Shown: piece after piece, positions 2,381 through 55,132 of the stretch
Layout: each line of letters starts with the position of its first letter
Position numbering within the stretch: position 1 is the first letter of the stretch
Source: Roseibacterium elongatum DSM 19469
GTDB lineage: Bacteria > Pseudomonadota > Alphaproteobacteria > Rhodobacterales > Rhodobacteraceae
Direction of reading: 5' to 3'
Assembly (NCBI RefSeq): GCF_000590925.1
Contig: NZ_CP004372.1
Coordinates: 2,213,001-2,277,000, forward strand
DNA length: 64,000 bases
Position numbers and translations under genes: made by a program
Notes under the pieces: generated by a model
Database searches by the model: none
Seen by the model: the letters and a program-made list of their open reading frames with translations, nothing else
Told to the model about the DNA's origin: nothing

Positions 2381-3170
2381 ATGGCCAGAAAACCCACCTG
2401 GGTCATCGAAAAGGAACGGGGCAAGCGGGCCGCCGCCGCCGAAACGGTCTGGCTGTTCGGTCTGCATGCCGTGCGGGATGCCTTGCTCAATCCGAAACGG
2501 GAAAAGCTGCGGCTGGTGGTGACGCGCAATGCCGAGGCCAAGCTGAGCGATGCCATCGCCCAGGGCGGCCTGAGCCCCGAATTGGCCGACGCCCGCAAGT
2601 TCCCGGTTCCACTGGATGCGGGGTCCGTGCACCAGGGTGCGGCGCTCGAGGTCAGGCCGCTGGATTGGGGGGCACTGGACGACCTGGTCACCGCCGGGAG
2701 CGGAGCGCCCTGTGTCGTTCTGCTCGACCGGGTCAGCGACCCGCACAATGTCGGGGCGATTCTGCGCTCGGCCGAGGTGTTCGGCGCCCGCGCCGTGATT
2801 GCCCCCGCCCGGCATTCCGCCCCCGAGACGGGCGCGCTGGCCAAGACGGCCTCGGGGGGCGCTGGAACGCCAACCTTATCTGCGGGTGGCGAATCTGGGA
2901 AACACGATGGAGCGTCTGCGCGACATGGGTTTTGTCCTTATCGGTCTCGATGGCGCCGGGGATGTCGACATCGGCGCGGCGGCGGCGCAGGCCGGAACGC
3001 GCCCCGTCGCGTTGGTGATGGGTGCCGAGGGGCCGGGTCTACGCGCCCGGACCCGTGATCTTTGCGATCTGTTGGCGCGAATCCCGGCGACGGGGGCTTT
3101 TGGCTCGCTCAACGTCTCGAATGCGGCGGCCGTGTCCCTATATGCCATGACACGGGAGTTTTCGGAGTAA
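2381..3170 (+). CDS. rlmB: 23S rRNA Gm2251 2'-O-methyltransferase RlmB (one-base frameshift)
   Basis: RlmB methylates the 2'-O of G2251 in 23S rRNA using SAM. The first frame from ATG 2381 has the N-terminal substrate-binding part and SPOUT motif 1 (LDRVSDPHNVGAILRSAEVF, about 115-134). The frame is lost at a run of six G (2854-2859). Removing one G restores ALAKTASGALE and joins a second frame carrying VMGAEGPGLR and the LNVSNAAAVSLY motif, ending at 3170. Total length is 790 bases, one more than a multiple of three, as expected for a single insertion. Whether the extra G is real or a sequencing error cannot be told here; error is more likely. Confidence 0.9.
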
Positions 3171-3173
3171 TCG

Positions 3174-3482
3174 ATGCCGCATCAGACCAAGATCGCCACC
3201 TGTTCCTATTGTGGCCGTCGACAGACCCTGCGTCTGACGGCGCGGGACGGACATGAACTGGCCTGTGGGGCCTGCGGCGCCCCCCTGCACGAGATGAAGT
3301 GGCTGAAGCCGGCCGAAACGCGACAAGCCGCCAAGCGCAGCCCGGCCCAGCCCGCCCCCCATGGCAAGCCGCCCAAATCGGATCGGCCTGACCGGCGCAA
3401 GAAAAAACGGAAAAAGCGCAAGGGCCTGCTGCGCGAGGTGTTCGAGGAGGGGTTCGATTTCCTCGAGGACATTTTCGATTGA
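3174..3482 (+). CDS. Small zinc-ribbon protein with lysine-rich tail
   Basis: This is a 102-residue soluble protein. Residues 10-34 hold two CxxC pairs (C10/C13 and C31/C34), the layout of a zinc ribbon. The middle is Pro/Lys-rich with a block of basic residues around 76-83 (RKKKRKKRK type), then an acidic, aromatic end (EVFEEGFDFLEDIFD). It starts three bases after the rlmB stop and its end touches the next coding region, so it is co-oriented with rlmB. The basic tract suggests nucleic-acid or membrane contact, but I know no function. Confidence 0.75.
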   Translation: MPHQTKIATCSYCGRRQTLRLTARDGHELACGACGAPLHEMKWLKPAETRQAAKRSPAQPAPHGKPPKSDRPDRRKKKRKKRKGLLREVFEEGFDFLEDIFD

Positions 3483-3526
3483 CGTCTGTCTGCCCCGCAC
3501 CAGGCAGATCGCACAGGAGGCCGCCC

Positions 3527-4003
3527 TTGTCCCAGTCAGCTGACCGATACGACCGCCGCCGCGCATTGGGGGTCATCGCCGCCGGATCTGCGATTGCGCT
3601 TGTGGTGGCCCGGCCCGCGGACGCGGCCGAACCGCCGGTCTTTCAGCAGGGCGGGTTTGCCCTCGGGGGGACGGACCCCGTGGCCTACTTCACGCAGGCA
3701 CAGCCGCTTGCCGGCGATCCGTCGCTGGTCCACGACTGGCAGGGCGCGCGATGGGCGTTTGCCGAGGCGGATCACAGGGATCGTTTCGCGGCCGCGCCCG
3801 AAAGCTTCGCGCCTGCATTCGGCGGGTATTGCGCCTTTGCCGCGGCGCGGGGGTATCTGGCCCCCACCATTCCCGAGGCATGGCATATCCATGACGGGCG
3901 GTTGTTCCTGAATGCGTCGATGCGGGTCTTGCGCCGTTGGCGGGCGGAATTGCCCGATGTCATCGCGCAAGGCGACGCGAACTGGCCGGGGATTCTGGGC
4001 TGA
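3527..4003 (+). CDS. Exported YHS-domain protein
   Basis: The product is about 158 residues from a TTG start, chosen because AGGAGG (3515-3520) sits six bases before it and because it gives a compact signal peptide with an arginine cluster (YDRRRALG), a hydrophobic core and an ADA cleavage site. The mature part is a YHS domain: GTDPVAYF, then W-x-F, H-x-D-x-F and GGYCAFA. YHS proteins are thought to bind metals, mostly copper or nickel; this one would act in the periplasm. The gene overlaps no neighbour and could share the rlmB transcript. No partner transporter is nearby. Confidence 0.8.
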   Translation: MSQSADRYDRRRALGVIAAGSAIALVVARPADAAEPPVFQQGGFALGGTDPVAYFTQAQPLAGDPSLVHDWQGARWAFAEADHRDRFAAAPESFAPAFGGYCAFAAARGYLAPTIPEAWHIHDGRLFLNASMRVLRRWRAELPDVIAQGDANWPGILG

Positions 4004-4099
4004 ACAGACCATTTGGGAAGCGCAGAACCGCCATGTGGCGTGATCACGAAATTGTGCCACCCCTTCAATTCCCGCAATCTTGCCCCATCTGTTTCATAG

Positions 4100-4190
4100 G
4101 TGCGGCGGTACGGAACACCGCGCACCCATCACTGTCCCTCGTTCCGTGACTTGCGCCCGCCGGATTTCCGCTGCGGGCGCTTTTTTGTCG
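4100..4190 (+). ncRNA. Possible small RNA ending in an intrinsic terminator
   Basis: Between the YHS gene and the CoA-binding gene lies a 7-bp stem ACGGAAC (4110-4116) / GTTCCGT (4141-4147), followed five bases later by a strong GC stem and six T. No convincing open frame fits. Two hairpins in series, the last a terminator, is the layout of many small RNAs, but no promoter could be identified, so a long 3' leader of the YHS transcript is the alternative. Confidence 0.3.
4153..4186 (+). terminator. Rho-independent terminator
   Basis: GCGCCCGC (4153-4160) pairs with GCGGGCGC (4173-4180) around a 12-base loop and is followed by TTTTTT (4181-4186). It would end transcription coming from the rlmB/YHS side or from the possible small RNA. 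Confidence 0.85.
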
Positions 4191-4205
4191 TGATATGCAG
4201 CGGGC

Positions 4206-4679
4206 ATGACGACACAGCCTTCAGATGACCTTTTGCGGCGCGTGCTGCGCCAGTCAAAAAGCTTTGCCTGCGTGGGGGTCAGCCCCAATCCCGTCCGGCC
4301 CAGCCATTACGTCGCGCGCTATCTGCGGCTGAAAGGGTATCGCGTGGTGCCGGTCAATCCGGGGCAGGCGGGCCAACAGATGTTCGGCGCGACCTGTGTG
4401 GCCGATCTGTCCGAGATCGCGGGCGGTGTGGACGTGGTCGACATTTTCCGCCGCCCCGAGGCCGTGCCCGCCATCGTCGAGGCCGCCTTGCAGATGCAGC
4501 CGCGCCCAAAGGTGATCTGGATGCAGATCGGCGTCGAGCACCCCGAGGCCGCCGCCGAGGCCGAGGCCGCGGGCCTGATTGTCATCCAGAATCGCTGTCC
4601 CAAAATCGAGTATCAGCGCCTGTTCGGCGAGTTGCGCATGGGCGGGTTCGCAACGGGCATCATCAGCTCGAAACTGTGA
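4206..4679 (+). CDS. CoA-binding (Rossmann) domain protein, YccU-like
   Basis: The 157-residue protein is a single CoA-binding domain like that of succinyl-CoA synthetase alpha: an N-terminal strand with VGVSPNP (about 24-30), VPVNPG, a VDVVDIFRRPE segment and the C-terminal QNRCPKIEY, all typical of the YccU/YneT group. Members bind CoA in vitro but their physiological role is unknown. It stands alone after a terminator and converges with hisE, leaving only seven bases between the two stops. Confidence 0.85.
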   Translation: MTTQPSDDLLRRVLRQSKSFACVGVSPNPVRPSHYVARYLRLKGYRVVPVNPGQAGQQMFGATCVADLSEIAGGVDVVDIFRRPEAVPAIVEAALQMQPRPKVIWMQIGVEHPEAAAEAEAAGLIVIQNRCPKIEYQRLFGELRMGGFATGIISSKL

Positions 4680-4686
4680 CGATAAT

Positions 4687-4995
4687 CTAGCGGCTGGCCT
4701 TTTCCTCGATGCCCGAGGTGCCCTCGCGCCGTTCGAGCTCGGCATAGACATCGGCCAGCGCCACGTCGCGCGAGGCCAGCATGACGAGGAAATGATACAG
4801 CACGTCGGCCGCTTCGGCAGTCAGCTTTTCGCGGTCCCCGCGCGCGGCCTCGATGATCGCCTCGATGGCCTCTTCGCCGAATTTCTCGGCGGCTTTCTTG
4901 GGGCCGCGCGCCAACAGCTTGGCGGTCCAGGACGATTTCGGGTCGGCGCCCTTGCGCGCCTCGATCGTGGCGGCCAGCCGTTCCAGCGTGCTCAT
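4687..4995 (-). CDS. hisE: Phosphoribosyl-ATP pyrophosphohydrolase
   Basis: The 102-residue protein is a stand-alone HisE, which hydrolyses phosphoribosyl-ATP to phosphoribosyl-AMP, step 2 of histidine synthesis. The MazG-like helices with K-x2[10 protein letters not shown] and [13 protein letters not shown] carry the metal-binding acidic residues. The ATG overlaps the hisF stop (ATGA), so it is translationally coupled as the last gene of hisB-H-A-F-E. Confidence 0.95.
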
Positions 4996-5753
4996 GTCAG
5001 CCTCATGGGGATGCCCGCCGCGGCCATATGGGCCTTGGCCTCGGCGATGGTGTAGGTTCCGAAGTGAAAGATCGACGCGGCCAGCACCGCGCTGGCATGG
5101 CCCTCGGTCACGCCCTCGACAAGGTGGTCGAGCGTGCCGACCCCGCCCGACGCGATCACCGGGACGGGCACGGCATCGGCGATGGCGCGGGTCAGCGGGA
5201 TGTTGAACCCCTGTTTCGTGCCGTCGCGATCCATCGAGGTCAGCAGGATTTCGCCCGCACCCTTGGCCACGACGGTTTTCGCGAATTCGACGGCGTCGAT
5301 GCCCGTGGGTTTGCGCCCGCCATGGGTGAAGATCTCCCATTTTCCGGGGGCGACCGTCTTGGCGTCGATGGCGCAGACGATGCATTGACTGCCGAACTTG
5401 TCGGCGGCGCGGGCCACCACGTCGGGGTCGGCCACGGCGGCGGAGTTGAACGACACCTTGTCGGCCCCGGCCAACAGCAGGTTGCGCACATCCTCGACCG
5501 TGCGCACACCGCCGCCAATGGTCAACGGCATGAAACAATGCTCGGCCGTGCGCGTGGCCAGATCATACATCGTGCCACGATTCTCATGGGTGGCGTGGAT
5601 ATCGAGAAAGCACAGCTCGTCGGCGCCGGCGGCGTCATAGGCCTGCGCCTGTTCCACCGGGTCGCCGGCATCGATCAGATCGACGAAGTTCACGCCTTTG
5701 ACGACGCGCCCGTCGGCGACGTCAAGGCAGGGGATGATCCGGGTCTTGAGCAT
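4992..5753 (-). CDS. hisF: Imidazole glycerol phosphate synthase cyclase subunit HisF
   Basis: The product is 253 residues, full length for HisF. The (beta-alpha)8 barrel carries both catalytic aspartates, D11 (IPCLDVADG) and D130 (CAIDAK), and the two phosphate-binding halves TIGGGVRT and ASGGVGTL. With HisH it turns PRFAR and ammonia into IGP and AICAR. It lies 56 bases after hisA and overlaps hisE by four bases. Confidence 0.97.
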
Positions 5754-5809
5754 GGGGACGCTCTACGCCATCGCAGCCGAGGGGGGAAGCGTGTTCACGC
5801 GCGGCGGCC

Positions 5810-6527
5810 TCATGCCAGGGCGGCCAGCGCCGCCGTGAGGTCCAGCGCCCCGTCATAGAGCGCGCGGCCCGAAATCGCCCCCGAGATCACGCCGGTATCG
5901 CGCAGCGCCTCGAGATCGGCCAGCGACGCAACGCCACCCGAGGCGATGACGGGGATCCTGGTCGCCCGCGCCAGATCGGCCGTGGCCGACACGTTCGGCC
6001 CGCCCATCGCCCCGTCACGGTCGATATCGGTGTAGATGATCGCGGCCACGCCGGCATCCTCGTAGCTGCGGGCCAGATCGGTCGCCATGACGTCGGTCTC
6101 CTCGGCCCAGCCCTTGGTCGCCACGCGGCCCTTGCGGGCGTCGATGCCGACCGCGACCTGACCGGGGAACGAGGCGGCGGCCTGCCACACAAGGTCGGGG
6201 TCCTCGACCGCGACGGTTCCCAGGATCACGCGGGCGATGCCCTTGTTCAGCCACATCTCGATCGTGTCGAGATCGCGGATCCCGCCCCCCACGTTGCGCG
6301 GGCACGTCCGTTGCCTCGAGGATTGCCTCGACAGCGGCACCGTTGACCGGCGCGCCGGCAAAGGCGCCGTTCAGGTCGACGAGGTGCAGCCATTGGCAGC
6401 CCGCGTCCTGAAACGCGCGGGCCTGTGCGGCGGGGTCGGTGTTGAACACGGTGGCCTTGTCCATCTCGCCGCGCAGCAGGCGCACGGCGGCCCCATCCTT
6501 GAGGTCGATGGCTGGGTAAAGGATCAT
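5810..6527 (-). CDS. hisA: ProFAR isomerase HisA (one-base frameshift)
   Basis: HisA isomerises ProFAR to PRFAR in histidine synthesis. From ATG 6527 the frame starts MILYPAIDL with catalytic D8 and runs to ATDVPAQ; a second frame continues [32 protein letters not shown] and ASGGVASL to the stop at 5810. The break is at or beside a run of six C on the plus strand (6285-6290). The span of 718 bases is one more than a multiple of three, so a single extra base explains it. The corrected protein would be about 238 residues, normal for HisA. The other his genes are intact, which speaks for sequence error. Confidence 0.93.
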
Positions 6528-6700
6528 GACGCGGCCCCCGGTATCGGATGAAAAACTCCGTGTGCTTTTGCACCGCGTCCGTGGCGGGGGCAAGGGTGTG
6601 CCGCCGCCCCGACGCCGCCCCGACGCCCCCACGTCAACCTTGCCAGTGGCCGCGATTTGCCCGCACCCTGATGCTCAGGGAGTTTTGGGAGGACACCTTG

Positions 6701-7087
6701 ATGAAGAAACTGGCTGTTGGCCTTGCCCTTGTGATGGGGCTTGCCGGACCCGCATCCGCCGACATCGCCGAAGGGATCTGACAGACCGAGCCGGATGACG
6801 GATCCTTTGCCATGGTCCGCATGACGACCTGTGGCAATGCCGTATGCGGCACGATCATTCGCACCTTCGACGAAACCGGCGAATACCAGTCCGAGAATAT
6901 CGGCCGGCAGATCGTGATCGATATGGTTCCGCAAGGCGATGGGCGCTACGAGGGATCGGTCTATCGCCCATCGAACGACCGCATCTATATCGGCCGGATG
7001 GAGGTCGACGGCGATCGCCTGTCGCTACGGGGCTGTGTGGCGGGCGGGTTGCTCTGTGCCCGGCAGAACTGGGTGCGCCTGCAGTAG
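6701..7087 (+). CDS. Exported DUF2147 protein with an in-frame TGA
   Basis: ATG 6701 follows a GGGAGGA ribosome site. A signal peptide (KKLAVGLALVMGLAGPASA) leads to DIAEGI, then TGA at 6779-6781, after which the same frame continues QTEPDDGSFAMV... to 7087. DUF2147 proteins normally have Trp at that point (EGxW), so TGG has become TGA. The rest looks intact: GNAVCGTI, the RYEGSVYRP turn and a C-terminal CVAGGLLC pair of cysteines. The gene sits opposite to his transcription between hisH and hisA. Read as written it is broken; a sequencing error is possible. Confidence 0.75.
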
Positions 7088-7114
7088 CGCCGCATCGTAT
7101 CGGCCTCTCCGGGA

Positions 7115-7136
7115 AAGAGCGCCGCGTGGCGCTCTT
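7115..7136. terminator. Bidirectional terminator between DUF2147 and hisH
   Basis: AAGAGCGCC (7115-7123) and GGCGCTCTT (7128-7136) form a perfect nine-pair stem with a GCGT loop between two convergent genes. T-rich bases follow on the plus strand. Confidence 0.7.
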
Positions 7137-7145
7137 CTTGATGCC

Positions 7146-7173
7146 GGTCAGGGGCGCCAGGTCAGGGGCGCCA
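7146..7173. repeat. 14-bp tandem duplication over the hisH stop
   Basis: GGTCAGGGGCGCCA occurs at 7146-7159 and again at 7160-7173, with six more bases of a third copy. The unit holds the last codons and stop of hisH (LTWRP-stop) on the minus strand, so the second copy lies after the stop and leaves the protein unchanged. Confidence 0.85.
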
Positions 7174-7800
7174 GGTCAGAAAATTGGCGATCAGGCGCAG
7201 GCCCGCGCGCTGGCTTTTCTCGGGGTGGAACTGCGTGCCGACCACGGTGTCGCGTGCGACGATCGCCGTGACCGGCCCGCCGTAATCGGCGTGCGCCAGC
7301 AGCGTGTCGGGTTCTGCGACGCGCATCGCGAAGGAATGCACGAAATAGGCGTGATCGCCCGTTTCCAAGCCATCGAGCACCGGGTGCTGGCGGTCGATCA
7401 CCAGATCGTTCCAGCCCATATGCGGCACTTTCAGCGACGCGTCATCGGGTTCGATCCGGACAACCTCGCCGGGGATCCAGCCAAAGCCCGCGACATCCTC
7501 GTACTCGCGGCCCCACGTGGCCAGCATCTGCATGCCCACGCAGATCCCCAGGAACGGCACACCGCGCGTCTCGACCGCTTCGATCAGGGCCTGTTCCAGC
7601 CCCTCGAACCCTTGCAGCCCGCGGCGGCAGGCGGGGAAGGCCCCGTCGCCCGGCAGCACGACGCGGTCGGCGCGGGCCACCTGCTCGGGGTCGGATGTGA
7701 CAATCACGCGGCCGGCATCGACCTCGCGGGCCATGCGTTGAAAGGCCTTTTCCGCGGAATGCAGATTGCCCGAGTCATAATCGATCAGGACGGTGGTCAT
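7162..7800 (-). CDS. hisH: Imidazole glycerol phosphate synthase glutaminase subunit HisH
   Basis: The 212-residue class I glutamine amidotransferase supplies ammonia to HisF. The nucleophile is C87 in [10 protein letters not shown]; the His/Glu of the triad are in QFHPEKS near the C-terminus; the N-terminal YDSGNLHS is typical. It lies four bases after hisB. The DUF2147 gene on the other strand separates it from hisA. Confidence 0.96.
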
Positions 7801-7804
7801 CGGG

Positions 7805-8392
7805 TCACAAACTGCCCTTCGTCGACGGGATCGCGTCGGATTTGCGCGGGTCGGAGTCCAGCGCATCGCGCAGCGCCCGTGCCACCGCCTTGAAGGCGGC
7901 CTCGGCGATGTGGTGGCTGTTCAGACCGTGCAGCGCATCGACATGCAGCGTAAGGCCGCCATGGGTCGACAGGGCCTGAAAGAACTCGCGCACCAGCTCG
8001 ACATCGAACGTGCCGATCTTTTGCGTCGGAAACGCGACGTTCCATACAAGGTAAGGCCGCCCCGACAGGTCCAGCGCCGCGCGCACCAGCGCATCGTCCA
8101 TCGGCAGCAGGCAGGCGCCATAGCGGCGGATGCCCCGCTTGTCGCCCATCGCCTGTGTCAGCGCCTGGCCCAGCGTGATGCCCACATCCTCGACCGTGTG
8201 GTGATCGTCGATATGCAGATCCCCCTCGGCCGAAATGGTCATGTCGATCAGGGCGTGTCGGGCCAACTGGTCCAGCATGTGATCGAAAAAGCCCACGCCG
8301 GTCCGGTTGTCGTACCGGCCGCTGCCATCGAGGTCGATCTCGACCGTGATATCGGTTTCCGCGGTCTTGCGGGTGATCTGAGCGCTGCGCAT
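7805..8392 (-). CDS. hisB: Imidazoleglycerol-phosphate dehydratase
   Basis: The 195-residue protein is the monofunctional HisB dehydratase, without the phosphatase domain of enterobacteria. The repeated metal-binding motifs [10 protein letters not shown] and [11 protein letters not shown] are present. A GGAGAAA ribosome site precedes ATG 8392. It is the first gene of the his cluster here, so the his promoter should lie between it and the glycosyltransferase stop at 8451, or further upstream. Confidence 0.96.
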
Positions 8393-8450
8393 CGGGTTTC
8401 TCCGTCGTCTTGTGGGCGCTTATAGGCGCGTGCGGGGGGCAGGGAAAGCC

Positions 8451-9560
8451 TCAGAGACCCAGCAGGTCGAAATAGGCTGCGGCAACCTCGTCCCAGCGGT
8501 AGCGGCGGTTGGCGATCTCGGCCAGTGCGGTGCCGATCTGCCGCGCCAACGGCGTGTCGCAAAGGTCGGGATAGAGGCGGGCCAACCCCTCGGCATCACG
8601 GAACCTTGCGGCCCGATCCTCGGTGGTTTCCAGATTGTAGGCGCAGTCAAAGACCGCGACGGGAATGCCGAAATGCATCATCTCGACCAACGACGGGTTC
8701 GTGCCGCCCGCCGTGTGGCCATGGATATACAGATGCGCCCGGTCGCGGATGGCCCGCAGGCGCGCGGGATCGTGTTCCGCATCGAGCAGGTGAAGATGGG
8801 ACGCGCCGCGATAGGTCGCCTTCAGCGCGCGGCCCTGCGCGGTGTCCTGCCAGTTCGAGACCAGCACCAGCGGCCGGTCGGGATAGGGCGCAAAAGCGTC
8901 GAGGATGAGGTCGAGACTGTTTTCGGGTTCCGCCCGCGCGATCCCGAGCGCATAGCGTTCCGGCAGGTTCAGGTCCGCGATATCGGCCGGGGCGGGCCTC
9001 AGGGCGTGATCCCCGCCATAGGCGATGATGCGCGGCGCGCGGCCATAGCGGGCCTCGATCTCGTCGGCGATCACCCTGTTGTCGGCGATGACCGCATGGG
9101 CGGCGCGCACCGCGCCTGCTTCGGACCGGCGCAGGAAACCGCGGGCCGCCTTGCCCCATTTCTTGCGGCCCCATTCACGCCCGTCGATATTCACGATCAG
9201 GCGGCTGCGGCCGGTCCAGCGGAACAGCGGCAGGGCCGCCGTGCCCGACGTGCCGAGGACCAGCACCGTGGTCGCCGGGTCCTTCCCCCAGCATTCCCGC
9301 GCCATGGAGGCGATATCGTAGGGGATCGACTGCACGCCATTCGCCCGCAGGGGCAGGCTGCGCAGCCGGGCCCCCAGCCACCGCTGCGGCGGCGGCGGGG
9401 TGCCGCGCGGGGCAGGGCACCACACCGTGAACCGGTCTGACACCCCCTCGAGGGCCGCGGCGCGGATCAGTTGCTCGGCCAAGGTCTCGAACCCGCCATA
9501 GCGGGCCGGCACGCCATTCGTACCGACTATGGCAATGCGCGGCCCGTCCCGTCCGGGCAT
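8451..9560 (-). CDS. DUF1972-type glycosyltransferase (rhamnosyltransferase-like)
   Basis: The 369-residue GT-B glycosyltransferase opens with IVGTNGVPARYGGFETLAEQ (11-30), the signature of the DUF1972 group, which includes rhamnosyltransferases, and has GGTNPSLVEMMHFG in the C-terminal donor half. It is cytoplasmic and likely adds a sugar to a surface polysaccharide. GGGGAGA precedes ATG 9560. It is isolated from the yjb-like genes upstream by a terminator. Confidence 0.8.
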   Translation of the reverse strand: MPGRDGPRIAIVGTNGVPARYGGFETLAEQLIRAAALEGVSDRFTVWCPAPRGTPPPPQRWLGARLRSLPLRANGVQSIPYDIASMARECWGKDPATTVLVLGTSGTAALPLFRWTGRSRLIVNIDGREWGRKKWGKAARGFLRRSEAGAVRAAHAVIADNRVIADEIEARYGRAPRIIAYGGDHALRPAPADIADLNLPERYALGIARAEPENSLDLILDAFAPYPDRPLVLVSNWQDTAQGRALKATYRGASHLHLLDAEHDPARLRAIRDRAHLYIHGHTAGGTNPSLVEMMHFGIPVAVFDCAYNLETTEDRAARFRDAEGLARLYPDLCDTPLARQIGTALAEIANRRYRWDEVAAAYFDLLGL

Positions 9561-9578
9561 GCGGTGTCTCCCCGTCAG

Positions 9579-9620
9579 AAAAAAAGGGACCCGCAGCGGC
9601 GTTCCGCTGCAGGCCCCCTT
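9579..9620 (-). terminator. Terminator of the yjb-like operon
   Basis: Read on the minus strand, a GC-rich stem (about CCTGCAGCGG with CCGCTGCGGG) around 9586-9617 is followed by seven T (9585-9579). It ends the operon of the three minus-strand genes above it. Confidence 0.85.
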
Positions 9621-9636
9621 CTGTAATGTCCGTGGT

Positions 9637-16071: not shown

Positions 16072-17448
16072 ATGGGGTATCGCACGGATATCAACGGGAC
16101 ACGCTTCGGCTTTGCCTCGCTCAAGGGGCTTCTGGCCAAGGCAACCCCCGAACGCAGCGGCGACGCCCTGGCCGGGATCGCCGCCGAAGGGCCGGTCGAG
16201 CGTATCGCGGCGCAGGTCTGTCTGGCCGATGTGCCGTTGCGCGATTTCCTCGACGACGTGCTTGAACAGGATGGCGATGCGGTCACCGCGCTGATTTTCG
16301 AGCAACATGACATGGCGCGTTTCGCGCCTGTCGCGGCCTTTACCGTGGGGCAGTTTCGCGACTGGCTGCTGGACCCCGCCACCACCGGTGCGCAGATCGC
16401 CGCGATTGCCTGGGGCCTGACGCCGGAAATGGTGGCGGCCGTCAGCAAGATCATGCGCGCCCAGGACCTGATCGCGGTCGCCGCCAAGCTTGAGGTCGTG
16501 ACCCGCTTTCGCTCGACCATCGGGCTGCGCGGGCGGATGTCGACGCGCAATCAGCCCAACCACCCCACCGATGACAGCCGGGGCATTGCGCTGGCCGCGC
16601 TGGACGGGGTGCTGATGGGGGCGGGCGACGCGGTGATCGGCGTGAACCCCGCCACCGACAGCTTGCCCGACTTTATCCGCATCTGCGAGGTGCTCGAGGC
16701 CATCCGCACCCAGCTCGACATTCCCACCCAGCATTGCTGCCTCGGCCATGTCACCACCGCCATCGCCGCGATCGAGGCCGGCGCCCCCGTCGATCTGGTC
16801 TTTCAGTCCGTCGCAGGCTCGGAAAAGGCGAACGCGGGCTTTGGCGTGACGCTGCCCCTATTGGACGAGGCTTATGATGCCGCCACCGCGCTGGGCCGCG
16901 CGCCCACGGGGGCGAACGTTATGTATTTCGAGACGGGGCAGGGCGCGGCCCTGTCGGCCGAGGCCCATCACGGCATGGACCAGCAGACCATCGAGGCGCG
17001 CGCCTATGCCGTCGCCCGGCGCTATCGGCCCCTTCTGGTGAACACGGTCGTGGGGTTCATCGGGCCGGAATACCTGGCCGATGGGAAACAGATCATCCGC
17101 GCGGGGCTGGAGGATCATTTCTGCGGCAAGCTCCTCGGCCTGCCGATGGGGGTGGATATCTGTTACACCAACCATTCCTATGCCGATCAGGAGGATATGG
17201 ATATCCTGCTGACAACGCTGGCCGCGGCTGGGGTGAATTTCGTCATCACCGTTCCCGGCGCCGATGACATCATGCTGAATTACCAAAGCCTTGCGTTCCA
17301 CGACGCGCAGTTCATCCGCGACACGCTGGGCCGCCCGCCGGCACCCGAGTTTGCCGGGTGGATGGCGGCCAACGGCATCGGCACGCCCGAGGTGACCCTG
17401 CCGACGCTCGAGGCGGCGCTGGGCCAGCTGCGCCTGCCCGCAGCATGA
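16072..17448 (+). CDS. eutB: Ethanolamine ammonia-lyase large subunit
   Basis: The 458-residue full-length EutB has LKGLLAKATPERSGD near the start, the QPNHPTDD segment, CCLGHVTTAIAAIEAGAPVDL and the MYFETGQG and MGVDICYTNH stretches of the barrel active site. With EutC and adenosylcobalamin it splits ethanolamine to acetaldehyde and ammonia in the cytoplasm. The stop overlaps the eutC start (ATGA). No eutA reactivase, microcompartment or transporter genes are near, so this is the simple non-compartment type. Confidence 0.96.
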   Translation: MGYRTDINGTRFGFASLKGLLAKATPERSGDALAGIAAEGPVERIAAQVCLADVPLRDFLDDVLEQDGDAVTALIFEQHDMARFAPVAAFTVGQFRDWLLDPATTGAQIAAIAWGLTPEMVAAVSKIMRAQDLIAVAAKLEVVTRFRSTIGLRGRMSTRNQPNHPTDDSRGIALAALDGVLMGAGDAVIGVNPATDSLPDFIRICEVLEAIRTQLDIPTQHCCLGHVTTAIAAIEAGAPVDLVFQSVAGSEKANAGFGVTLPLLDEAYDAATALGRAPTGANVMYFETGQGAALSAEAHHGMDQQTIEARAYAVARRYRPLLVNTVVGFIGPEYLADGKQIIRAGLEDHFCGKLLGLPMGVDICYTNHSYADQEDMDILLTTLAAAGVNFVITVPGADDIMLNYQSLAFHDAQFIRDTLGRPPAPEFAGWMAANGIGTPEVTLPTLEAALGQLRLPAA

Positions 17449-18196
17449 GTGACCGGCCCACCATATCGCGCGACGACATCCGCGCGCTCACGCAGGCGCG
17501 ATTGACCTTTGGCGCGCGGGGGCGGCGCTGAGCACCGGCAGCACCCTGGATTTCGCGCTGGATCATGCGCGGGCGCGCGCTGCGGTTCTGGCCGATCTGG
17601 ATGTTGCCCGGCTTGGCGCGGCGCTGAACCGGGCAGGGCTCGGGCATCTCGCCGTGGTCAGCCGGGCCGACACGCGCGACACCTTCATCCGCCGCCCCGA
17701 TCTGGGTCGCGGCCTGCCTGATGATGCGGCGTTGGGGGGGCTTGGCCCCATCGACGTGGCACTGGTCCTGGGCGACGGGTTGTCGGCGACGGCGGTACAT
17801 CTGAACGGGGTGGCGTTCATTGCGGCGCTGGCCGACCGTCTGGCCGGGATCGGGTTACACACGGGGCCGGTCGTGCTGGCGCGGCAGGCCCGCGTGGCGC
17901 TGGGCGACAAGATCGCCGGCGCCTTGGGGGCCGAAACCGTGGTGATGGCGCTCGGCGAACGCCCCGGCCTTTCGGCGGCGGACAGCCTTGGGGTCTATAT
18001 CACCCATCGGCCGCGGCCCGAGACACCCGACAGCGCGCGCAACTGCATCTCGAACATCCGGGATGCGGGGCTGGGCGTCGACGCGGCGGCAGACCAAACC
18101 GCCCGGCTGATCGAGGCGATGCGCGCGACAGGCAAAAGCGGTGTGGCCCTGACCCGGGCGCTGTCCGGGGCGGCGGCGCTGCCGCCCGAGGGCTGA
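17445..18196 (+). CDS. eutC: Ethanolamine ammonia-lyase small subunit (one-base frameshift)
   Basis: From ATG 17445 the frame reads the expected helical N-terminus to ARLTFGARG and then hits a stop at 17529-17531. Adding one G to the five-G run at 17518-17522 gives ARGAALSTGSTLDFALDHARAR and a continuous EutC to 18196, with HTGPVVLARQARVALGD, GERPGLSAADSLG and RNCISNIRDAGL, the conserved cobalamin-side motifs. The span is 752 bases, one short of a multiple of three. The corrected protein is about 250 residues. Sequencing error is the likely cause. Confidence 0.92.
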
Positions 18197-19452: not shown

Positions 19453-19661
19453 GCTGCCCCGCCCGATCCCGATGCCACCTTGGCCATGTGGCGAACCCTC
19501 GGGCAGGGTGGCGGCGATTTCAATGCGAAACCTGTGGCCCGAGGCGCGGCGCAGCATGAAACGCCCACCTGGCGAGGTCGAAACCGGTTGCCAGATCGGG
19601 GCCACCCATGATGCTATCCGGCCCGGGCAGCCAGGGCATGTGCGGGGGCGCGGGACGGCGA

Positions 19662-20472
19662 ATGCATCTTGGACTCATCGGATACGGCAATATCGCGTGG
19701 GGTCTGACCGATCTCCTGGCGGAGGAGCCGCTGGATCGTCTGACCGTGCTGGTGCGGCCCGGCACAGTTGTACGGACACGGCAGGCCCTTGCAGGCTGTC
19801 GCGCCGCGGAACGGTGTCAGGTGACCGGCGATCTGTCGGATCTTTTGTCTGACGCGCCCGATCTGGTCGCGGAATGCGCGGGCCATGGCGCTGTCTCGGG
19901 CCCGGTGCCGCAGGTCCTGCAGGCGGGTGTGCCGGTGATCGTGGTCTCGGTCGGGGCGCTGGCCGACGACGCCCCTGGCCCGGTCCCTTCACCAGGCCGC
20001 CGAGGCGGGCGGCGCGCCCCTGATCCTGCCTGCGGGGGCGATCGGGGGCATCGACCTGCTGTCGGCACTTGCGCCGGCGGGTGATCTGTCGGTGCGCTAC
20101 CAAGGGGTCAAACCGCCCGCCGCCTGGCTGGGCACGGCGGCCGAGGCAAGCCTCGATCTGGATCGGCTGGATGCGCCCACGGCCTTTTTCAACGGCTCGG
20201 CGCGCGAGGCCGCGTTGACGTACCCCAAGAACGCCAATGTTGCGGCGACCTTGGCGCTGGCGGGGGCGGGGTTGGATGCAACCCGGGTCGAACTGATCGC
20301 GGACCCCGCCGCGACCGGCAACCGCCACAGCTACGAGGTGACCTCGCCCGTGGCGCGGTTCCGGGTGCAGATCGACAACGCGGCGTCGGGCGGCAATGCC
20401 AAGACATCCATGGCCACGATCTACAGCCTGCTGCGCGAGATCAACCGCCGCCGCAGACCGGTGGTGATCTGA
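19662..20472 (+). CDS. NAD(P)-dependent L-aspartate dehydrogenase family (DUF108), one-base frameshift
   Basis: From ATG 19662 the Rossmann start MHLGLIGYGNIAWG is clear. The frame fails after VSVGALADDA; removing one C from CCCC at 19972-19975 gives ALADDALARSLHQAAEAGG and joins the second half, which has LPAGAIGGIDLL (catalytic region), GVKPPAAW, YPKNANVAATLALAG and NRHSYEV, all typical of aspartate dehydrogenase. The span is 811 bases, one more than a multiple of three; corrected length is about 269 residues. These enzymes interconvert aspartate with oxaloacetate/iminoaspartate. It leads an operon with dipeptidase, the 552-residue protein and DUF3726, suggesting catabolism of an aspartate-like compound. 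Confidence 0.85.
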
Positions 20473-32073: not shown

Positions 32074-32525
32074 TCATGCCGCGACCCAGTCGGGGTCCTT
32101 GGCGACGAGTTCGACGGTATTGCCGTCCGGATCGAAGGTGAACACCCCGCGCCAGCCGATCCAGTCGAAGGTTTCGACCGTGTAGTCGCGGCCGAGATGC
32201 TCGTACCAGGCGATGACGGCCTGCTGTTCCGACCACGGCACGGTCAGCGCGATATGATGCAGCGAGGATCCCGCGCCGGTCGCAGGCGGGGCCGCGCCCC
32301 CGCGCGTGCGTCCCGCGCCCTCGATATCGTGGCGAAACAGCGCCAGAACCGCCGTATGCCCGCCAACCCTTCGGCGATGCGGAAAAAGACGATCGGCTGC
32401 CCCTCGGGCTCGCGGATCGGCTCCAGCCCGACCACGTCGCGGTAGAATGCGACCATGGCCGGCATGTCGCGGCAGCGAATGGCGATCTCGCCCAGGGCGC
32501 GTACCTTGAAATTCCGTTTTGCCAT
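32074..32525 (-). CDS. VOC (glyoxalase/dioxygenase) family protein, one-base frameshift
   Basis: From ATG 32525 the frame reads LGEIAIRCRDMPAMVAFYRDVVGLEPI, a VOC start, to FFRIAEGLAG. A base is missing near 32358 (plus strand ATGCCC, expected ATGGCCC); restoring it gives GLAGHTAVLALFRHDIEGAG and a second half with LHHIALTVPWSE, FDWIGWRGVFTFDPDGNTVELVA to the stop at 32074. The span of 452 bases is one short of a multiple of three. The fold binds a divalent metal; the reaction is unknown. It shares a promoter side with the RND genes but not an obvious operon. Confidence 0.82.
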
Positions 32526-42698: not shown

Positions 42699-42702
42699 CG
42701 TG

Positions 42703-43724
42703 ATGCGATTGGGAACGACCCTGAAAACCACCCTCGGCGCGGCCCTGGCGGCGCTGACCCTGTCGGGAGCCGCATCGGGCCAGACCCTGGCCGAAAACAA
42801 CGCGCTGATGTTCCAGCAGATGCGCGAGATCCGCGGCGTGTCGGGCAGCGAGATGCGTCGCATCCAGGAAATCTTTGCCGCCGCGCCATGGATGGGGCAG
42901 GGCAACCCGTCGGTCACACGCCACCCGATGACGCCGGAACAGGCGGCCGCGCGGTTGGGCGGATCGGTCGAGCAGGTGCGCGACAGCTACCGCAATCGTG
43001 CCTTCGAACGCATCTGCGGCGAACCCTTCATGGTGCCGCTTTATGACCCCGAAACCCAAAGCCCGTCGGATGCAACCGTCTGCGCGGACATGTTCGAATA
43101 CCCCAACATTCCGCTGGCCTACCCGGTGACCTGGGTGCGCGCCAACGAGGCGGCGATGTTGTGCGCGGCCGAAGGCAAGCGCATGGGCGACGCCCATGAG
43201 TGGGAGGGGGCCGCGGCCGGTCAGCTTTTGCCGCCGGACTACCCGTTCGACATGGTGCGCGGCATGGGCATGTCGGCCGCCGTGAACACGATGCGCAGCT
43301 GGCACAACAACCGCTACGCTTCGACGCGCAACCTCTATTCCATCGGTCAATGGCGCTCGGGCGTCTGCGCCACGGGCTCGTCGAAATCGCCGGGCTGCAA
43401 TGGCGGCAGCTTCACGGGCTGTGCTCGAACACCTATCCGGCGGGCTCTTTCCCCGAATGCCGGTCGCCCCTGGGCGTTTATGATATCGATGGCAACGCCG
43501 CCGAGCACATGAACCTGCCCCTGTCCGAGGATCAGATGGCCAGCCGCGGCTCGACCACGCTGGGTGTGACCGAGATGAAAGGCTCGTGGTTCATCTGGGA
43601 CACGATCCGGGCGCATGAGCACTGGGCCCGCTGGCGCGCGCCCTTCTGGCATGGCAGCCGCGTAATGTCGCCGTCGAGCCACCATAACTACCACCTCGGG
43701 TTCCGCTGTTTCCGCGATATCTGA
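42703..43724 (+). CDS. Exported SUMF1/FGE-like protein (one-base frameshift)
   Basis: From ATG 42703 (GGAGGGAG ahead) a signal peptide (LGAALAALTLSGAASG) leads into a SUMF1-type fold: YPVTWVRANEAAMLCAAEGKRMGDAHEWE. The frame breaks near 43423 (TGTGCTCG, expected TGTGGCTCG); one added G gives CGSNTYPAGSFPECRSPLGVYDIDGNAAEHMNLP and continues to LGFRCFRDI at 43724. The span of 1022 bases is one short of a multiple of three. The usual GNVWEW is replaced by GNAAEH, so it is not a classical formylglycine-generating enzyme. Several cysteines remain. It probably works in the periplasm with the preceding protein. Confidence 0.72.
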
Positions 43725-45287: not shown

Positions 45288-46885
45288 TTATTGCAGGGCG
45301 GCCAGGCGCACGGTGGCCGAATTGAGCGGCCCATCGCTGTTGAGCAGGCTGGCATATTGCCCATCGGTCAGCAGGCTGCGCAGGTCGATGGCGCGCCCGT
45401 CGATATAGGCCGTGCGGCTGACCAGACGGATGCCATGGCTGTAATCGGCATAGTATTCGCCATGCACGGTCGACAGCGGCTGGATCGGGTTGCCGTTGCT
45501 GCGGTGCCAGCCGTAGATCGCCACGCGACCGGGCGCGCGGCTGAGGCGGTTGGCGATCACCAGATCCTTCTTGTGACCGGCGACCAAAATGCCGCCGCGG
45601 CCGCCGGCGCGGGCGAACTGGCCGTCCACGGTGGCGTCATGGCGCAGGAAATAATCCGTCGACGACATCTGCGGCCCCGGCGTCATGGGCGAGGGCGACA
45701 GGCGCAGGTCGGCCTGCGCATAGATCGCATCGACCATGCGCGTCGTCGGCAGCATCATGTCGAACCCGTCAGCCACCCGCAGCGCGGCCGGCAAGCCGAG
45801 GGGCACTCGCACGTGATCTTCGTCCGAGCCGATGGCAAGGTAATCGGGTGTCACGCAGATCGTGATCTCGGTCTGGCGGCCCCCGGCGATGCCGGTGAAG
45901 CTGACTGGCTGCAGATCGCGCAGGAAATCCGGGACGTTGCCGGCCAGCGCCTGATCGGCGATGGCATTGTCACGTCCCGTACCGGACCCGTTGCCCAGGC
46001 TGGCCATCACCGCCGCGCCACCCGGCGCGCTGCCACGGCGGCGCGGGATCTCGGCCAGACGGGGCGAGCAGGGGTTGGCGCCGCTGCGGGGCCGCAGCAG
46101 CCGGGGGGCGGCGGGTTCCTCGTAACGGGCGAGGGTGATCTCGTCCTCGGGGTCGGCAGCGCGGGCGACCTGAACCGCAGGCTCGGCGCGGCCCGGTGTG
46201 GCGCGCACGGGGAAGCGTTCGGCCAGACCCTCGGGGCGCAGCGCCGGGCGCGGGCTGACGGCTGCCAACAGGACCGAGGGCGTCGCGCCGTCGGGCACGG
46301 CATCAGCGGGCGATTGCGGGGCGCTTAGCGGCGCGGCGCGCGCCACGATCGCCTCGGGGCGGATCGCGGGCGTCGGCAATTCCAGCGCGCGGGCCGGCGT
46401 CATGTTGCGCGCCACCTGCACCAGTTCCACCCCGATTTCGGGTCGCGGCAGGGCCTCGACCGGGGGGCGGCCCAGCATTACCGGCACGGACACCGGCGCG
46501 GCATCGGGGCGGTCGCCCCGCGGGCTGGCCAGGGCCAGGCGCGGCGCGCGCTGGGGGTGAGCAGCGGCGCATGGCGCACGGCCGCGATGTCATCGTCGAA
46601 TTCGCCAAGCGTCAGCGCCCCCGATGCCTCGGCTTCGGGGTAACGGCGAGCCTCGGCCGTGCGGGGGCGCGGCGCGGGCCGCAGGCTGGCTGTCTCTTCG
46701 ATGGCGGTTGCGCCCCGAGACCCGATACGGGCGTCGGACACGTTGGAAAGCACGACGAAACTGCAGATCGCGGCGATACAGGTCGAAGCGACCGAGGTCG
46801 CCAGAACGATATCACTCCGGTCCAGTAGCCTGGATGAACTGCCCCTACGTCGCGCCACGTTGAGCGCGAAAACTGTCCCTTTCAT
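45288..46885 (-). CDS. Membrane-anchored protein with C-terminal DYSHG domain (one-base frameshift)
   Basis: From ATG 46885 the product has one membrane helix (DIVLATSVASTCIAAICSFVVLS, in parts at about 26-48), then a long Pro/Ala/Arg-rich linker. The frame breaks at a run of five G on the plus strand (46553-46557); six would give LLTPQRAPRLALASPRGD and continue to 45288. The last 200 residues form a folded domain (ITICVTPDYLAIG, HKKDLVIANRL, IYGWHRSNG, STVHGEYYADYSHGIRLVS). The H-x7-DYSHG cluster could be catalytic. The likely arrangement is a cytoplasmic stub with the domain in the periplasm. I do not know the family's function. Confidence 0.6.
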
Positions 46886-46964
46886 GGGCACCGGGGTACG
46901 CCCAAAGTGTTAAAATCGCAACAATGCCCAACCCGGTTTTTCCACAGCTGTTGCAGCTTGGGCA

Positions 46965-49077: not shown

Positions 49078-49502
49078 GCCATCTCCCTCGCGTCTCGAAA
49101 GACGTAGCGCCGGTCGAGCAGGTATTTCGTGACATACCCCACGCTCAGGCCCAGCACCGCGCCCACCTCCCGCGCCAGATCCGTCCCCCAGATCAGCCAG
49201 GCGGCGGTTTCGCTCACCCAGAAGATCGCCGTCGTCACCACCCCCATCAGCGCATAAAGCAGGAACTGCGCCCCCTGGGCGCGTGCGCCTGTGGTCTGGT
49301 CGTAAAAGATCCACCGCTTGTCCAGCACGTATTTCACCACGAGGCCCACCAGCGTGCCAGCGGCAATCGCCGCGGCAAAACGCAGCCCTCCCACGGGGTC
49401 GGCGCCGGCCAGAACCAGGCGCTGCGCCGCCAGATTGGCCAGCACCGCTATCACCGCAAAGGCGGTGTAGCGCAGCACCAGGGTGCGCCCCGTCACAGCC
49501 AT
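49074..49502 (-). CDS. GtrA family membrane protein
   Basis: The 142-residue protein has four hydrophobic helices and the GtrA repeats VVKYVLDKRWIFYD and VTKYLLDRRYVFRD. GtrA proteins are proposed to flip polyprenyl-linked sugars across the membrane. Here it would move the arabinosyl-type lipid made by the neighbours to the periplasm. It overlaps the UbiA gene by ten bases and the DprE1-like gene by four. Confidence 0.88.
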   Translation of the reverse strand: MAVTGRTLVLRYTAFAVIAVLANLAAQRLVLAGADPVGGLRFAAAIAAGTLVGLVVKYVLDKRWIFYDQTTGARAQGAQFLLYALMGVVTTAIFWVSETAAWLIWGTDLAREVGAVLGLSVGYVTKYLLDRRYVFRDAREMA

Positions 49503-51000
49503 AGCGCACCGGCGATCATCGCGGCGATGATGGCCACCACCAACCGGCTGGTGCGGTTTTCCAGCGTCCAGACCAGCGGGTCGTCATCCATTTCGCCGCG
49601 TCCGGCCACCAGCACCATGCGGCTGATCCAGAAGATCAGCATCGGGCAGACCCCCCAGAGCAGCCAGGGCGCCGGGAACTTGTCCTGCACGTCGGGCTGG
49701 TCGACATAGAGCGCCAGCACCAGCACCGCGAGATACCCCGAGGCGATGGCCATCTGGCTGAGGATGCCGCGATCCTCGGCCCGGTAGCCGCGGCGCGTGA
49801 CCTCGCGCCCGGCGGCGCCGGCCTCGCTCATCTCGCCCAGGCGTTTGACCGCGGCCAGGGAAAAGAAGATGAACATCGAAAAGGCCAGCAGCCAGACCGA
49901 CAGGCTGCTGCCGATGGCGGCGCCCCCGGCGATGACCCGCAAGGTGAACAGAAAGGCGAGCATGCAGATATCGACGATGGCATGGCGCTTGAGCTTGACC
50001 GAATAGGCGGTGGTGGCCACGAAATAGAGCGCCACAAGCCCCAGCAGCGCCGGTGACACCGCCAGGGCCACGGCCAGCCCCGTCAGCAGCAGCACCGGCA
50101 TCAAGAGCGTGCCCGTCGCCGCCGACAAGGCCCCCGCCGCAAAGGGGCGTCTGCGCTTGCGCGGGTGGCTGCGGTCGTCGGCCAGATCGAGCAGGTCGTT
50201 GAGCACATATCCCGCCGAGGCGCAGAGGCTGAGCGCCACGAAGGCGCCCAAGATCCCGAACGCCGCGCCTTCGCCATGCAGGGGGTCGGCGATGACCGGG
50301 ACCAGAACCAGCAGGTTCTTCAGCCACTGATGCGGTCTGAGCGCCTTGACCAAGGCGCGCGCGCCGCCGTGACCGCGCTCCAGATGTTCGGCGGGCGGGC
50401 CGTCTGCGGCCAACCGGCCCGCGTGCGCGCGCTGGCCCCGACCGTGATCGCGCCCGCAGCGGCCCGCCAGACGGGCAGATCCGCCGCGCTGTCACCGGCG
50501 TAGACGAAATTGCCATGCCCGAAGCGCTCGGTCAGAAACGCCGCCTTGGCCTCGCCCTTGAGGTTGCGGCTGCCGTCCGAGCCATGCACCTCGTCGAACA
50601 GGCCTAGATGACCGGCGATCTGCTGGGCCAGGCGGATATCCGTCGCCGTCACCAGGGCGGTCCGCCCGCCGGCCGCCCGCCATGCGTCGATCCGCGCGAT
50701 CATCTGGGCGTTATAGGGCAGGTCGGCGGGGTGGATCTGTGCCCGCGTCGCCAGTTCGGCCTTGAGGGTCGCGCGGCCTCGGCCGAGCCAGTGCAGGGCG
50801 CGGGCCGGAACCCGCCAGTCATTGCCGGCCGCCGACCAGAAGCTTTCGTGCAGCATGTCGGTGCGGATCAACGTCCCGTCGAGATCGACCACCAGAACAT
50901 GCCCCGCGGCGGCCAGATCGGCTGCGGGCGCATCTGACCGGTCGTCCGGATCGGGCAGGGCGGGGGCGTCGGAGCGGGCCAGCGTGAAATTCCCTTGCAT
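49493..51000 (-). CDS. HAD phosphatase-UbiA prenyltransferase fusion (one-base frameshift)
   Basis: From ATG 51000 a HAD domain is read: VVDLDGTLIRTDM (D39, D41), VTATDIRLAQQI and YAGDSAADLPVW. The frame breaks near 50412-50413 (plus strand CAACC, expected CAAACC); one more base gives RTRAGLAADGPPAEHL and joins ALVKALRPHQWLKNLLVLVPV and the UbiA core with LNDLLDLADDRSHPRK and a second acidic loop, with about eight helices. The span of 1508 bases is one short of a multiple of three; corrected length is about 502 residues. The fused enzyme would attach phosphoribose to a polyprenyl phosphate and remove the 5-phosphate, feeding the DprE1/E2-like pair. Confidence 0.82.
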
Positions 51001-52694: not shown

Positions 52695-53270
52695 CTAGCC
52701 GCGATCCATCGCGTGATATTCCGCGTTCGGCATCATGTCGGAGGCGATGGCAAAGCGGTTGGACATGTTGAAGAACCCGATTACATCGGCGAGGTCGAAA
52801 ATGTCGGCCTGGCTGAGGCCCGCATCGCGCAACGCCTGACGGTCGGGCTCGTCCACCTCCCACGGGGCGGTCGTCAGCTTCCACGCGAAATCGAGCATCG
52901 CGCGTTGCCGGGCGTCCAGGGTCGCGACCCGGTAGTTGATCACCAGCATCTCGCCCAGATGCGGATCGCCCGAGAGCGCGCGCACCGCCTGCCCATGCGC
53001 GACAAGGCAGTAGAAGCAGCGATTGGCCGAGGACACCACCACGGCCACCATCTCGCGCTCCAGCTTGCTCAACCCCGAGGGGGCCAGCATCAGCGTGTTG
53101 TAATAGGCGGCGAAGTTGCGCAGCTTTTCCTGGTTGAAGGAAAAGGTGCGCAGCACGTTGGGCACAAGGCCCAGTTTCTCGGCGCAGATCTCGAAATAGC
53201 GCTGCATGTCCTCGTCCATCTCGGACGGGTCGGGCAGGTCGTAGATCGAAACGTGATCGGGTTGCGGCAT
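52695..53270 (-). CDS. AhpD-like / carboxymuconolactone decarboxylase family peroxidase-related protein
   Basis: The 191-residue protein is all-helical, with the CxxC redox pair in SSANRCFYCLVAHGQAV, the AhpD core with the downstream histidine three residues after the second Cys (C-L-V-A-H). It matches the group annotated as peroxidase-related enzyme, which reduces hydroperoxides through a dithiol. GAGGAGAGG precedes ATG 53270. It lies below the SulP gene, separated by the double palindrome. Confidence 0.87.
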   Translation of the reverse strand: MPQPDHVSIYDLPDPSEMDEDMQRYFEICAEKLGLVPNVLRTFSFNQEKLRNFAAYYNTLMLAPSGLSKLEREMVAVVVSSANRCFYCLVAHGQAVRALSGDPHLGEMLVINYRVATLDARQRAMLDFAWKLTTAPWEVDEPDRQALRDAGLSQADIFDLADVIGFFNMSNRFAIASDMMPNAEYHAMDRG

Positions 53271-53342
53271 GGTCCTCTCCTCCCTGAGATCCGGGTGAGA
53301 GTGCCCGCGCGCCCGTCGCAACGCAAGCGGCCGGGCGGGGGC

Positions 53343-53383
53343 GGAAAACTCGAGTTTTCCGTGCCGTTTTCCTCGAGGAAAAC
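53343..53383. repeat. Two adjacent perfect 18-bp palindromes with swapped arms
   Basis: GGAAAACTCGAGTTTTCC (53343-53360) and GTTTTCCTCGAGGAAAAC (53366-53383) are both perfect palindromes, five bases apart. Each consists of GGAAAAC and GTTTTCC arms around TCGA but in opposite order, so arms can also pair across the two elements. They sit between the sulP stop (53391) and the AhpD-like start (53270). Confidence 0.9.
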
Positions 53384-53390
53384 GCGCCGC

Positions 53391-55132
53391 TCACTGAGCG
53401 GCGGTCACCTCCGGGTGGGGACCTGTCAGTGCGGCCCAGGCGTCATATTGCGACAGGAACACGCGCCCCGTCATCTCGTCGAGGAAATGCGACCGCTTCA
53501 GACGGTCGGTGACGGGGCCCTTCACCTCGGACATGTGCAGTTGCACATCCATCGAGCGCAGGCGCTCGTTGATCGCCTCGAGGCTTTCCAGCGCCGACAT
53601 GTCGATCTCGTTCACCGCCGAGCACATCAGAACCACGTGTTTCACCGGGCAATCCTCGGTCACGCGGTCCTGGATCAGGTCCTCGAGAAAGCGGGCATTG
53701 GCGAAATAGAGCGACTCGTCGATGCGCAAGGTGACGACATGCGGGTCGGTCAGCACCTCGTGGCGGTGGATGTTGCGGAAATGCTGGGTGCCCGGCACCA
53801 GCCCCACCTCGGCCACATGCGGCTTGGACGTCTTGTAGAGATGCAGGCCGATGGACAGGATCACGCCTGCCGAGACGCCCGTTTCCACACCAAACCCGAG
53901 CGTCAGCAGGATGGTCGCGGCGACGGCCACGAAATCGGCCTTGGAATAGGTCCAGGTCTTTTTCAGGATCGAGAAATCGACGAGGCTGAGGACGGCGACG
54001 ATGATGGTGGCCGCCAGCGTCGCCTTGGGCAGGAAAAAGACGAGCGGCGTCAGCGCCAGCGCGGCGATGGCCAGGCCAACGGCGGTATAGGCGCCAGCGG
54101 CAGGCGTTTCGGCGCCGGCGTCGAAATTCACCACCGAGCGCGCGAAGCCACCCGTGACCGGGTAGCCGCCCGAAAACCCTGCCGCGACATTGGCCGCGCC
54201 CAGGCCGATGAGCTCCTGATCGGGGTCGATGCGCTGGCGTTTCTTGGCGGCAAGCGTCTGCGCGACCGAGATCGACTCGACAAAGCCGATGATCGAGATC
54301 AGAAGCGCGGGGATGAACAGTGCCGAGACAAGGTCGAGCGACAGATCCGGCATGGTGAAGGGCGGCAGCGATTGCGGCACCTCGCCCACGATCGACACGC
54401 CCGCCCAGTTCGACAGTCCGAAGACCCAGACCGCCAGCGTGGTGACCACGACCGCGCCCACCGGCCCGGCCTTTTGCGCGATATCGGCCATCCGCGGGTT
54501 CACGCCCTTGGCAATCAGCAGCGGCTTCAGCCCCTTGCGGACCCAGAACAGGAGGCCGTGGCCGCCACCCCGATGATCAGCGTGATGACATTCGTCTCGG
54601 GCAGATGCGCGACCAGCGACACCACCAGTTCGAACAGGTTGTGGCCGCTCGCATCCACGCCAAGGATATGCTTGAGCTGGCTGGCCGCGATGATGACGCC
54701 CGAGGCGGTAATGAACCCCGCGATCACCGGGTGGCTGAGGAAATTCGCCAGGAATCCCAGCCGGAACACCCCCATCGCCAGCAGGATGCCGCCCGACAGC
54801 AGCGCCAGCGTCAGCGCGGCGATGGCATATCCCGCCGTACCCTGTTCGGCGACCTGGCCCACCGCGGCGGCGGTCATCAGCGAGACCACGGCGACCGGGC
54901 CGACGGCCAGCGCGCGGCTGGTGCCGAAAATGGCATACAGGATGATCGGCAGGATCGAGGCGTAGAGACCGGCCTCGGGCGGCAGACCCGCCAACAGCGC
55001 GTAGGCCAGCGATTGCGGGATCAGCATGATCGTGACGATCACCGCCGCGATCAGGTCGTTTTGCAGCGCGTCGCGGTCATAGCGGCGCCCCCAATCCAGC
55101 ACAGGAACATACTTGCGAAGAGAAGAAAACAT
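53391..55132 (-). CDS. SulP family anion transporter with STAS domain (one-base frameshift)
   Basis: From ATG 55132: LQNDLIAAVIVTIMLIPQSLAYALLAGLPPEAGLYAS is the SulP N-terminal signature. The frame fails near 54553 (plus strand GGAGG, expected GGAAGG); one more base gives NVITLIIGVAATAFLFWVRKGL and joins the second half with the remaining helices and a C-terminal STAS domain (ESLYFANARFLEDLI, VVLMCSAVNEIDMSALESLEAI). The span of 1742 bases is one short of a multiple of three; corrected length is about 580 residues. It is probably a sulfate or bicarbonate transporter. Its place beside sulfide-oxidation genes favours sulfate. Confidence 0.88.

Follow-up and report, generated by a model that had tools for sequence, protein, structure and literature searches.

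Nine genes split by single bases in a 64-kb stretch of the Roseibacterium elongatum DSM 19469 assembly: very probable consensus errors

Introduction

Why would nine genes within 64,000 nucleotides of one bacterial genome each be split by exactly one base? The question is raised by bases 2,213,001-2,277,000 of the single 3,555,109-base contig of Roseibacterium elongatum DSM 19469, a member of the Rhodobacteraceae, and this whole stretch is called the window here. The genes concerned are rlmB, hisA, eutC, sulP, an aspartate dehydrogenase gene and four others. The original prediction, made from the letters alone, attributed their breaks to uncorrected sequencing error and not to gene decay. Comparison with relatives and with a sample of the same genome showed that breaks like these nine are spread throughout this assembly and are rare or absent in the compared relatives. 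We are very confident that they are consensus errors of the assembly and not mutations in the organism.

Results

A one-base shift in each of the nine genes

Orthologous proteins were aligned with the window by frameshift-tolerant protein-to-DNA alignment. They came from a control genome of the same genus (G003, one genome) and from other relatives. The aligner models one-base shifts only, so that a call of one extra base may equal two missing bases, and vice versa. Each of the nine genes was found to be split by a net one-base shift, no farther than about 15 bases from the predicted position. For each gene an orthologue with a single open frame was found; for the seven genes other than hisA and rlmB, the reference orthologues were chosen as open frames, so relatives with a shared shift would go uncounted. 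The direction of the shift was as predicted in 9 of 9 genes, with one extra base in rlmB, hisA and the aspartate dehydrogenase gene and one missing base in the other six. The genes are as follows.

2381..3170, plus strand: rlmB (23S rRNA 2'-O-methyltransferase), one extra base, run of six G at 2854-2859
5810..6527, minus strand: hisA, one extra base at 6285-6292, run of six C
17439..18196, plus strand: eutC (ethanolamine ammonia-lyase small subunit), one base short, 17505-17526; start not fixed
19653..20472, plus strand: aspartate dehydrogenase gene, one extra base at 19969-19975, run of four C
32074..32525, minus strand: VOC/glyoxalase-family gene, one base short, about 32355-32366
42700..43724, plus strand: SUMF1-like (FGE-sulfatase domain) gene, one base short, about 43419-43423
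45288..46891, minus strand: DYSHG-motif gene, one base short at 46552-46557, run of five; start not fixed
49493..51000, minus strand: HAD-UbiA fusion gene, one base short, 50412-50415
53391..55132, minus strand: sulP sulfate permease gene, one base short, about 54550-54559

The extra base of rlmB was located at 2856 by alignment to the G003 orthologue (locus L107), which was identified as RlmB by TIGR00186. That of hisA was located at 6292. At the loci of 80 named relatives, rlmB was intact in 47 of 47 full orthologues and hisA in 71 of 71. Besides the adjacent hisF, a hisA family search of the genome returned both pieces of the split gene and nothing more, so that this gene is the sole hisA found.

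In eutC, the missing base fell between 17505 and 17526 at 8 of the 9 orthologue places tried. Eleven places were listed, and the two untried ones (L296 and L298) match the query only from residue 56 on. The interval surrounds a run of five G at 17518-17522, and five of the eight places put the missing base at 17505, ahead of this run.

The aspartate dehydrogenase break was placed at 19969-19975 by 7 of 7 well-aligned orthologues. Nineteen loci were viewed for this gene, on the plus strand only, and 13 of them had an open reading frame (ORF) in place; the other six of the 13 were minus-strand matches in which the wrong ORF was aligned, with scores of at most 91. The Pfam domains NAD_binding_3 and Asp_DH_C of this gene fall in two frames.

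The missing bases of the VOC/glyoxalase, SUMF1-like and sulP genes were located at 32366, 43423 and 54553-54559, respectively, and the families of these three genes were taken from their orthologues. The missing base of the DYSHG gene was located at 46552 by one relative only (G003), and its orthologue has no Pfam family at E 0.001. In the HAD-UbiA gene the break was located at 50415, and the G003 orthologue has both domains in one frame.

Seven of the 36 window genes with a G003 orthologue were broken, and all seven were among the nine. The G003 orthologues of these seven read through in one frame. Four or five of the breaks had been predicted to lie in G/C runs of four to six; we count five of nine, if the eutC break is placed at its run. 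The expectation that automatic annotation would give about eighteen gene fragments stands as an upper estimate only. Upstream of its break eutC keeps some 26 codons only, and this 5' piece was not called by the coding model described below.

An excess of breaks throughout the genome

The genome was sampled by 53 stretches of 20 kb in addition to the window, which together make up about one third of it. In a reciprocal orthologue test with identical settings and model-trimmed genes as references, 19 breaks were found in 18 of 163 genes here vs 1 in 176 genes of G003 (p = 2e-5). Single one-base shifts accounted for 17 of the 18 broken genes.

The same excess was seen with a seven-state coding model that allows the frame to change. 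When trained per genome, the model called 37 shifts in 621.6 kb here (34 stretches including the window) vs 3 in 771.8 kb of G003. A shared model was built from 100 loci of relatives, of which 80 were hisF neighbourhoods from named genomes and 20 had homology to segments of the window. Its shift calls numbered 32 in this genome (632.0 kb), 2 in G003 (776.0 kb) and none in the training loci themselves (1,368.9 kb). Twenty further stretches of this genome, outside the training, gave 15 shifts in 347.8 kb. Borders of the "stop-overlap" type were not in excess here under the shared model (140 in 632 kb vs 309 in 1,369 kb), and no hidden extra breaks are claimed.

The orthologue test puts the break rate at 12.6 per 100 kb (95% interval 7.6-19.7), and the coding model puts it at 5.4. 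The coding total, scaled up from the sampled stretches, is about 3.05 Mb. From both rates we infer about 160 to 390 breaks genome-wide.

Sequence context of the breaks

The context was examined for 21 localised breaks, namely the 19 of the reciprocal test, eutC and the aspartate dehydrogenase gene. The positions of the last two were set by hand at the predicted runs inside the aligned intervals. A run of at least five bases lay within 4 bases of 9 of the 21 breaks vs 3.2% of random coding positions (p = 8e-9). When the hand-placed eutC break was left out, 8 of 20 breaks were at runs of at least five. A run-length census of the coding sequence showed no shortage of long runs here.

Split genes outside the window, among them the only fabD and mutL found

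The gene fabD lies in two frames at 12438-13380 of stretch L117, which corresponds to about 2312.4-2313.4 kb of the genome, near a run of five G. A fabD family search of the whole genome returned nothing besides the split gene. FabD is an essential protein in bacteria that make fatty acids by the type II pathway. The gene mutL is also split in two frames (L272:1509-3369, genome about 801.5-803.4 kb), and the model border lies in a run of eight G. A search of the genome returned the two mutL pieces and two weak matches of about 20 bits elsewhere, so that this is the sole mutL found.

Twenty split pairs out of the 37 and 15 coding-model calls were run against NCBIfam. In eleven pairs the two sides matched one family in the correct profile order, ten of them adjoining and one, the RND permease, with a gap. 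The same family was present on both sides of the break in choline dehydrogenase, glucose-6-phosphate dehydrogenase (zwf), a biotin-dependent carboxylase, the RND permease, GDP-mannose dehydratase (gmd), a methylmalonyl-CoA mutase, a LysR regulator, a thiolase and prephenate dehydrogenase. Eight pairs lacked a family altogether, matched one on a single side or matched differing families, and they speak neither for nor against a break. The remaining pair (L303 near 15474) speaks against a break, with a methylmalonyl-CoA mutase nearly complete on one side.

Conservation and stop codons in the broken genes

The median identity to G003 was 0.875 for the broken genes (n = 18) vs 0.881 for the unbroken genes (n = 145; p = 0.86). 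The ratio of nonsynonymous to synonymous changes was 0.47 in broken vs 0.50 in unbroken genes, and 0.50 before vs 0.45 after the break. Among these 18 broken and 145 unbroken genes there was no relaxed constraint and no concentration of breaks in less conserved genes. This agrees with the prediction that genes are struck irrespective of their importance, as does the finding that the only fabD and hisA found are split. In-frame stops were not in excess, with 1 of 163 genes here vs 1 of 176 in G003.

Candidates set aside and side observations

Stop-to-stop ORFs were tried as references for the orthologue test and gave 49 events here and 43 in G003; by our reading, these events were largely conserved sequence upstream of starts and shadow frames, and the references were replaced by the model-trimmed genes. 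A simple codon-usage gene finder assigned strands that conflicted with homology and was replaced by the seven-state model. One call (L118 10849-11431) was made in the first training and was gone after retraining.

A shift called at homologous places in both genomes (L117:17967-19752 here and L207:8116-9838 in G003) was rejected as a false positive in both. At this locus two genes of one strand overlap in a way that resembles a conserved frame transition. One is small (an ORF of about 150-170 codons) and the other is a terminase-like gene of 470 codons, where "terminase-like" is our reading of the sequence and not a family match. The pair may be the first two genes of a gene-transfer-agent cluster.

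In the window, the alignment of 6701-7084 with a G003 gene contains an in-frame stop at 6780. Coding was called from 6812, and the stop is perhaps upstream of the gene start here. Stretch L267 (contig 1-20000) has a G+C content of 0.479, compared with about 0.63-0.69 elsewhere, and everything called coding in it is on one strand. It is perhaps a foreign island or integrated element.

Discussion

The results lead us to regard the breaks as almost certainly not a real biological feature. The strongest single point is that the sole fabD found is split; a living cell should not tolerate its loss. The preference of the original prediction for uncorrected sequencing error over decay is upheld by the genome-wide excess, the preference for runs, the lack of an excess of stops, the indifference of the breaks to how conserved a gene is and the splitting of sole copies. 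Every 100 kb of coding sequence in the assembly would then carry about 5 to 13 residual one-base insertions and deletions (indels), with a preference for runs of at least five bases. All of the estimated 160 to 390 frameshifts would be false, nine of them within these 64 kb. The genes would presumably be whole in the living cell, and reads would be expected not to confirm the breaks. The source was probably a long-read assembly without polishing by accurate reads. Long reads are plausible, and the single 3.56 Mb contig is suggestive of them.

Several observations weigh against this explanation or qualify the data behind it. No run of at least four lies within 4 bases of ten of the 21 localised breaks, so miscounted homopolymers by themselves are not a full explanation. 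The localised breaks comprise 9 insertions and 12 deletions, and this mix by itself indicates no one platform. Two orthologue events (L282 3241 and 9398) lie 18 and 21 residues from the end of the alignment and could be natural C-terminal divergence; 17 events are left without both. The sole control event in G003 (L237 17402) is also close to the alignment end. The coding model gives some false calls, namely the L117/L207 overlap and the L303 call near 15474, which looks false. For eutC, the alignment at the ninth orthologue place (L289) begins at 17471 and puts the missing base at 18158 instead. A rise of break density with distance from dnaA (located at 1,290,760) was significant in the first 34 stretches (rho 0.46) and failed in the 20 new stretches (rho -0.01), so a link to read depth is not claimed. 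In that trend the origin had been scanned after the fact, and the new stretches lay mostly in the half near dnaA.

The best biological rival is a mismatch-repair mutator. In such a lineage mutL would be broken, the breaks would be real, and one-base slips would have accumulated genome-wide. That the only mutL found is split, with its border in a run of eight G, fits such a history, as do the preference of the breaks for runs and the unaffected state of the compared relatives. However, while a true loss of mutL would produce a mutator, assembly error accounts for the mutL split equally well; G runs of this kind are easily miscounted, so mutL is itself likely to be a victim of the error. In addition, the sole fabD found is split and would have to be dispensable, roughly half of the localised breaks stand apart from runs of at least four, and conservation is no lower among the broken genes. 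The count of in-frame stops is too small to weigh against a mutator. We consider it very unlikely that the breaks are real slips of a mismatch-repair-deficient lineage. Equally improbable in our view is a mutL-deficient mutator with some hundreds of recent one-base frameshifts, housekeeping genes included, in which slippage or a mixture of strains sustains essential functions such as FabD.

Ordinary gene decay, in which the broken genes would be recent pseudogenes of a lineage shedding functions, is more doubtful still. A frameshift is a common first step of decay. Matches to the larger piece of the aspartate dehydrogenase gene were found in 20 of 119 other genomes of the family, and matches to that of eutC in 9 of 119 (E 1e-20), so some of the nine genes are dispensable in the family. 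Decay does not account for broken genes that are as constrained as unbroken ones, nor for in-frame stops that are not in excess (one gene in each genome). The genes struck include fabD, hisA, zwf, prephenate dehydrogenase and gmd, and 17 of the 18 broken genes among the 163 were struck by a single one-base shift.

The least probable explanation is that programmed frameshifting or transcriptional slippage joins the split frames into complete proteins. Slippage is possible at runs, and several of the breaks are found there. Against it, all 71 full hisA and all 47 full rlmB orthologues are in one frame, each of the other seven genes has at least one relative with one open frame across the site, the one of the three G003 shifts that is homologous to a call here is a gene overlap, and neither direction nor context is common to all nine breaks.

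If the breaks are consensus errors, as we believe, this record should be used with caution. The single-contig assembly is rated 100% complete with 1.26% contamination, yet 18 of the 163 testable genes (11%) are split. Pseudogene counts, claims of gene loss and statements such as "lacks FabD, HisA or MutL" that are taken from this record are probably wrong.

Similar patterns have been described. Indels that fragment genes in long-read assemblies are described for Kastor (PMC12007338) and Polypolish (PMC8812927). Most single-contig genomes assembled from nanopore reads only had more pseudogenes than their representatives, which was tied to uncorrected frameshift errors (PMC8103633). "Many frameshifted proteins" are given as an example of problematic sequencing or assembly (PMC10228379). 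The present assembly resembles these long-read-only assemblies, in which consensus indels, often homopolymeric, inflate the apparent number of pseudogenes in complete single-contig genomes. It differs from their error pattern in that about half of the localised breaks here are outside runs of at least four. The GeneTack survey (PMC3711429) covered 1106 genomes and contains one category of singleton frame transitions that are expected to be sequencing errors. Although one genome was compared with its relatives here, unlike the 1106 genomes of that survey, the frame transitions described above are like the GeneTack singletons in that they are not shared with homologues.

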